DNA from: Tolypothrix sp. PCC 7910 | Lineage (GTDB): Bacteria > Cyanobacteriota > Cyanobacteriia > Cyanobacteriales > Nostocaceae | Reading direction: 5' to 3' | NCBI RefSeq assembly: GCF_011769525.1 | Contig: NZ_CP050440.1 | Span: 3,287,501-3,351,500, forward strand | DNA: 64,000 nucleotides | In this document: piece by piece, positions 62,203 to 62,540 of the stretch | Numbering within the stretch: the first letter of the stretch is position 1 | Layout: each line of letters starts with the position of its first letter | The notes under the pieces: model-generated | What the model was told of the DNA's origin: nothing | Seen by the model: the letters and a program-made list of their open reading frames with translations, nothing else | Databases searched by the model: none | Made by a program: the position numbers and the translations under genes

Positions 62203-62439
62203 TCAAACGGCAGGATGAACATTTTTGTAGGATTCGATCAGTTCTCTACGCCCACTACCACGATGCGGTACAGGTTTTTCTGGCTGGTTAGGCTTGGGCT
62301 TGGGTCTGGCTGAGAGCAAGTGTTCTGAACCAGATGAGGATGGTAACAAACGTGAGAATTGATTGATCGTAGCTTGACAGTTGATAGCAAAGGAAACAGC
62401 TACCAAACTAGAGGCTAAAAGTGAAACTACAGCACGCAT
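62203..62439 (-). CDS. patX: PatX, HRGSGR heterocyst-patterning precursor peptide
   Basis: A 78-residue exported precursor. The N-terminal signal peptide is VVSLLASSLVAVSFAINCQA (about residues 1-23), followed by a Pro/Lys-rich linker and the motif HRGSGRR at residues 59-65, then a 13-residue tail. PatX proteins of filamentous cyanobacteria carry this HRGSGR peptide, which is thought to act like PatS RGSGR: it binds HetR and stops neighbouring cells from differentiating. It is translated from an ATG at 62439 without a close Shine-Dalgarno; a GGAGG about 32 bases upstream is too far. A DIF+-type TCCGGA lies 58 bp upstream. Confidence 0.85.
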   Translation of the reverse strand: MRAVVSLLASSLVAVSFAINCQATINQFSRLLPSSSGSEHLLSARPKPKPNQPEKPVPHRGSGRRELIESYKNVHPAV

Positions 62440-62496
62440 AGCAGATGTTTATTTTAAAACTGTCTTATTACCTCCTACTTAGTTTTTATTACTGCA

Positions 62497-62502
62497 TCCG
62501 GA
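62497..62502 (-). promoter_or_regulatory. DIF+-like TCCGGA motif upstream of patX
   Basis: TCCGGA is the DIF+ core found around -35 of promoters active in differentiating Anabaena cells. Here it lies 58 to 63 bases upstream of the patX ATG, in the only intergenic context for this hexamer noticed in the window. A convincing -10 box at the standard distance was not found. Confidence 0.6.
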
Positions 62503-62540
62503 CAAATCCCTAAAACGTGTTTTTTTTTACTGAATAAAAA

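Follow-up and report, generated by a model that had tools for sequence, protein, structure and literature searches.

A short open frame near one end of the window (the whole 64,000-nucleotide stretch of Tolypothrix sp. PCC 7910 DNA that was analysed) raises two questions: whether it encodes PatX, and what PatX might do in a genome with both hetR and a PatS-like gene. PatX is a small exported protein of filamentous cyanobacteria. It carries a peptide that inhibits HetR, the master regulator in the formation of nitrogen-fixing heterocysts, and that lies at the heart of one of the simplest patterning systems in biology; three sources of this peptide are known, and in the model strain PatS conceals the part played by PatX. 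The defining PatX paper is reportedly that of Elhai and Khudyakov in 2018 (Mol Microbiol). A sequence-only reading had proposed a patX with an HRGSGRR motif and an upstream DIF+-like element. Its main point was right: the gene is an ordinary, well-conserved patX.

Identity and conservation of the gene

The coding sequence (62203..62439) lies on the minus strand, which the sequence-only reading had not given, with its ATG start at 62439 and the end of its stop at 62203. The 78-residue product matches the equivalog model NF047413 of NCBIfam (heterocyst_PatX) at 85.6 bits, against a cut-off of 30 (E 2.9e-24), over residues 1-66. Because the match to this curated model extends well beyond the pentapeptide, we identify the product as PatX, as the profile search recommended at the outset was meant to decide. 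A Pfam search of the same product returned no family at E 0.01. The architecture described earlier is likewise present: the N-terminus is hydrophobic (mean hydropathy 2.25 for the best stretch of 12 residues, in windows stepped by two), and a linker rich in Pro and Lys leads to HRGSGRR, after which 13 residues remain as a tail. Residues 1-23 (62371..62439, minus strand; boundary set by eye) form a putative Sec signal peptide. Comparison of the eight members of the window's genus gave pS 0.343 and pN 0.113 over 28 non-independent pairs, with zero non-synonymous differences in the seven HRGSGRR codons; patX is thus under purifying selection. The nearest proteins among the relatives listed, which may not include the window's own record, are those of Nostoc linckia FACHB-104 (99%), N. 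carneum NIES-2107 (97%), and Calothrix membranacea FACHB-236 (96%), from which the product differs only in scattered residues.

Across the family, the PatX model matched 210 of 217 genomes (209 above cut-off); in 14 control genomes it matched nothing. HetR was found in 214 of the 217. For comparison of loci, we read 166 patX loci, drawn from 86 family genomes (the window's own included) and from 80 contigs of named relatives (the best 80 of 103). Of the 86, 30 were the best matches, and the other 56 were picked by place among the higher-scoring of the 210 matched genomes. When the DNA surrounding the start is compared, the 166 loci collapse to 125 distinct ones, a sample that leans to high-scoring matches, with lower-scoring patX nearly absent, and whose counts are not independent since the loci are related. 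The gene for an FAD-dependent oxidoreductase (PF12831; 62541..63998, minus strand, continuing past the window) is the same-strand upstream neighbour in 118 of the 125, separated here from patX by a 101-bp gap. A polysaccharide deacetylase was rejected as a conserved downstream partner, occurring in only 10 of the 125 loci (a lower bound, as flank lengths vary).

Five near-complete genomes with HetR gave no match to the PatX model: G002 and G003 of one genus (g3) and G032, G033, and G034 of another (g10). An alignment search and a loose profile search for PatX in these five found nothing convincing, and 12 of the 14 controls also matched in the loose search, which marks such matches as noise. 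Genus g3 has a PatS-like gene preceded by TCCGGA at a distance of about 660 bp. The three g10 genomes lack the PatS-like pattern; searching with the HRG[ST]GR pattern gave one HRGSGR in frame in each of them, within short frames (28-47 codons) that have no signal-like start in frame and no TCCGGA in the preceding 420 bp. One published account states that PatX is present in all HetR-containing cyanobacteria (PMC7761841); another puts genomes with patP and hetR yet without patX at 12% (PMC12756182). Thirteen genomes have two PatX-model matches each (G094, G099, G103, G111, G112, G119, G124, G132, G133, G141, G151, G165, and G198; G094 is listed at 38% contamination), which suggests paralogues.

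The HRGSGRR motif (residues 59-65; 62245..62265, minus strand) is the probable source of the HetR-binding peptide. It recurs as HRGSGRR in 97 of the 125 distinct loci, as HRGSGRK in 13, and with HRGTGR in three, an invariance that comes in part from the choice of loci for RG[ST]GR. Beyond it lies the C-terminal tail ELIESYKNVHPAV (residues 66-78; 62206..62244, minus strand). Exactly 14 residues follow RG[ST]GR in 84 of the 125 loci, the window's patX among them; other loci have 2-13 or 15-43, so the 14-residue length cannot be strictly required. Among the 118 distinct proteins, 78 have 14 residues after RG[ST]GR, of which the first is R/K in all, the second E/D in 76, and the last V/I in 66. 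The mean top-residue frequency is 0.45 in the tail, against 0.83 in residues 1-23 (over the 118) and 0.99 in HRGSGR. This tail is therefore of the most frequent kind in the loci read and is weakly conserved, and its shared length rules it out as a special feature of this protein.

The sequence-only reading suggested that the tail could affect processing. In Anabaena PCC 7120, the hexapeptide HRGTGR is reported to bind HetR at 88 nM, whereas PatX without its signal sequence gave no interaction in the two-hybrid test described, and a cut was identified 27 residues before the motif (PMC12756182). The binding of the hexapeptide alongside the lack of interaction of signal-less PatX makes it plausible that removal of the tail is part of maturation; nothing about this particular tail departs from the usual form of the family.

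Four PatX variants (loci L052, L067, L068, and L219, from G069, G170, G174, and G001, respectively) carry RGSGR far upstream; in the first three it stands 37-43 residues from the end. At the usual place of the motif, all four have a second, degenerate copy (GGSRR, GGERR, GGDNRR) followed by the tail, which looks like a duplication of the motif with decay of the original.

The promoter region of patX

Within the intergenic gap, TCCGGA lies 63 bp before the ATG (62497..62502, minus strand), so that the interval 62203-62502 singled out by the sequence-only reading corresponds to the gene plus this motif. By itself the hexamer is uninformative, as it occurs five times in the window where about nine occurrences would be expected from base composition (a hand estimate). 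Its fixed place is informative: among the 125 distinct loci, all of which begin with ATG, it stands at -63 in 107, at -62 in 14, and at -66 in one, making 122, and the remaining three have TCCGGG instead. It is at -63 as well in two patX genes with lower scores that do not belong to this set (in G001 and G183). The proposal that it is a DIF+ (DIF1) element is supported by this position together with the dependence of the patX DIF1 promoter on hetZ reported for PCC 7120 (PMC7377430). The DIF1 of PatX genes is defined as centred near -35 of the transcript; our positions are relative to the ATG.

Farther upstream, 28 bp from the DIF motif, is the place of an NtcA-type box (62517..62530, minus strand), which here reads GTAN8CAC. 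We take GTAN8TAC to be the NtcA consensus. Of the 122 loci with DIF, 87 have this perfect form at a distance of 27-30 bp (28 bp in 81), and 118 have the looser GTN10AC. A single GTAN8TAC is not significant, since there are 16 in the window; the fixed spacing is. The altered half-site is shared by the window and four other members of the genus (G013-G016), and occurs at one locus outside the genus (L050), while the three other genus members keep GTAN8TAC. The box is unlikely to be a remnant of the upstream FAD gene, because GTN10AC is present in all seven of the 125 loci in which no such gene was found upstream. NtcA is reported to control patX in PCC 7120 (PMC7476756 and PMC12756182).

The 24 bases directly before the ATG (62440..62463, minus strand) are also conserved, with a mean of 1.69 bits per column in 107 related loci; the first 60 coding bases average 1.59, and the DNA 100-250 bp upstream 0.88-0.90. 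No conserved RNA structure was found in the 5' region: for 20 diverse loci, the alifold energy gave z = -0.09 when set against 100 shuffles of the alignment columns.

The inhibitor circuit in this genome and its genus

Other parts of the circuit are present in the same genome. hetR (624.9 bits against a cut-off of 489) lies 9631 bp from patX, 8 kb past the end of the window; six of the eight genus members have a gap of 9.5-10.2 kb and G012 one of 85 kb, and in G017 the two genes are on different contigs. In PCC 7120, to judge by its locus tag (alr2339), hetR presumably lies a few genes from patX. There are two nifH matches above cut-off, a cut-off that 3 of the 14 controls also pass, and a PatS-like frame ending in DERGSGR-stop at C1:7307357-7307380. 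Like PatX, PatS is a source of RGSGR for HetR inhibition; it differs in ending in RGSGR and in occupying a separate locus, whereas the window's product does not end there, having 14 further residues and a hydrophobic N-terminus. No motif-bearing HetN was recognised among the 11 in-frame RGSGR sites of the genome (out of 37 pattern matches), as all 11 frames are of at most 144 codons. PatX also occurs in non-heterocystous species (PMC11298460), so it is no marker of a heterocyst former on its own, as the sequence-only reading had made it; taken with hetR, two nifH, the PatS-like gene, and the Nostoc relatives, the organism is likely a heterocyst former.

The circuit of PCC 7120 offers the closest comparison. 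There, PatX (Asl2332) is, as here, a precursor with RG(S/T)GR; it has a DIF1 promoter and is exported, as is putatively the case here (PMC12756182, PMC7761841, and PMC7377430). The motif is HRGTGR in that protein and HRGSGR in this one. A second difference concerns the other two genes: patS and hetR of PCC 7120 are reported to have DIF1 promoters (PMC7377430), whereas here TCCGGA was not found upstream of either the PatS-like gene or hetR. To place this in the family, PatS-like genes were collected by the pattern DERGSGR or NERGSGR followed by stop, giving 66 sites in 65 of the 217 genomes, all with upstream DNA read. TCCGGA occurs within 1 kb upstream at 44 of the 66, in 37 of those at 620-690 bp. 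The 22 sites without it include all eight of the window's genus (G017 gave only 329 bp), two in g22, one each in g23 and g34, eight in g47, and two matches that look spurious (G025 and one of two in G092). Widening the search to 1.5 kb added one occurrence each in G071 (1411 bp) and G073 (1233 bp); the seven genus members with a sequence of that length gained none. Aligned by eye, the patS upstream DNA of G012 and G018 seems to retain parts of the region without TCCGGA, and that of the window's genome, G013, and G015 (three of the five subclade members) does not align there.

Upstream of hetR, where only exact TCCGGA was scored, the motif lies within 1.2 kb in 8 of 40 genomes; five of the 40 belong to the genus (979 bp of sequence in one case), and none of these has it. 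The window's genome is without it, as are G012 and G018 over longer stretches. Because the motif is missing at hetR in most genomes outside the genus too, this absence is not peculiar to the genus. patX keeps TCCGGA in eight of eight genus members, and so, among the three genes, it is the only one found with the exact motif in this genus; the patX promoters of g47, which also lacks the motif at patS, lay outside the comparison. We put this contrast forward without claiming that it is unpublished. A stretch of G012:C1 about 8 kb from hetR (L100:53-1653) has nine TCCGGA, several of them 133-143 bp apart; it looks repetitive and is probably a repetitive gene rather than a set of promoters.

The contrast may reflect a genus-level shift, in which patS and hetR are without DIF1 and patX alone has it, PatX rather than PatS would be the early diffusible inhibitor that sets the pattern, and in the subclade the patX promoter would also have moved away from the perfect NtcA-type box, which would relax its direct control by nitrogen. 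As these are motifs and not expression, and as patS may use another promoter, we offer this functional switch tentatively and consider it less likely than not. A reading to which we give roughly even chances is that PatX, though real, serves here only as a backup, as it does in PCC 7120, and that PatS sets the early pattern, using a promoter free of TCCGGA. It is favoured by the retention of the PatS-like frame ending in DERGSGR in all eight genus members, and by the report that inactivation of patX in PCC 7120 caused no visible change in nitrogen-depleted medium (PMC7761841). Weighing against it are the absence of TCCGGA from the 1.5 kb before the PatS-like gene in all seven genus members with so long a sequence, and the upstream DNA of the three aligned subclade members, which by eye does not match the DIF-bearing patS promoters.

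A model for PatX action and its significance

By homology to PCC 7120, nitrogen starvation would lead to activation of NtcA and HetR/HetZ, and the DIF1 promoter of patX would then fire in prospective heterocysts. The precursor would be exported via its signal peptide and trimmed by the periplasmic peptidase PatP, with removal of the tail presumably needed to yield a hexapeptide, and the freed HRGSGR-containing peptide would enter neighbouring cells, bind HetR, and stop it from binding DNA. This genome supplies the gene, its profile match, the motif, the promoter geometry, and the accompanying HetR and PatS-like gene; export (in an E. coli assay), processing by PatP (Alr1666), HetR binding, and hetZ dependence come from work by others in PCC 7120 alone (PMC12756182, PMC7761841, PMC7377430, and PMC7476756). 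The altered NtcA-type half-site of the window's subclade counts against the mechanism, as do the seemingly HetR-independent patX effects in Leptolyngbya BL0902 (PMC11298460) and the report that PCC 7120 showed no visible change in nitrogen-depleted medium once patX was inactivated (PMC7761841). On balance, that the gene is patX and works as its homologue in PCC 7120 is very probable.

It is most improbable that PatX here acts chiefly on a target other than HetR: mutant transcriptomes of Leptolyngbya BL0902 (PMC11298460) pointed to patX effects that looked HetR-independent, but that organism forms no heterocysts, whereas here HRGSGR is retained and the genome has HetR. An open frame that arose by chance and happens to contain RGSGR, for which it might be said that most of the 11 in-frame sites of this genome are without a plausible gene, has a negligible probability, being refuted by the profile match, the occurrence in 210 of 217 genomes, and the conserved promoter and neighbour.

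The main value of the locus is the contrast between the patX and patS promoters in the genus. A genus that has the differentiation promoter element at patX and not at patS or hetR would allow a direct test of the role of PatX. More generally, such a genus would show promoter rewiring in a patterning circuit.
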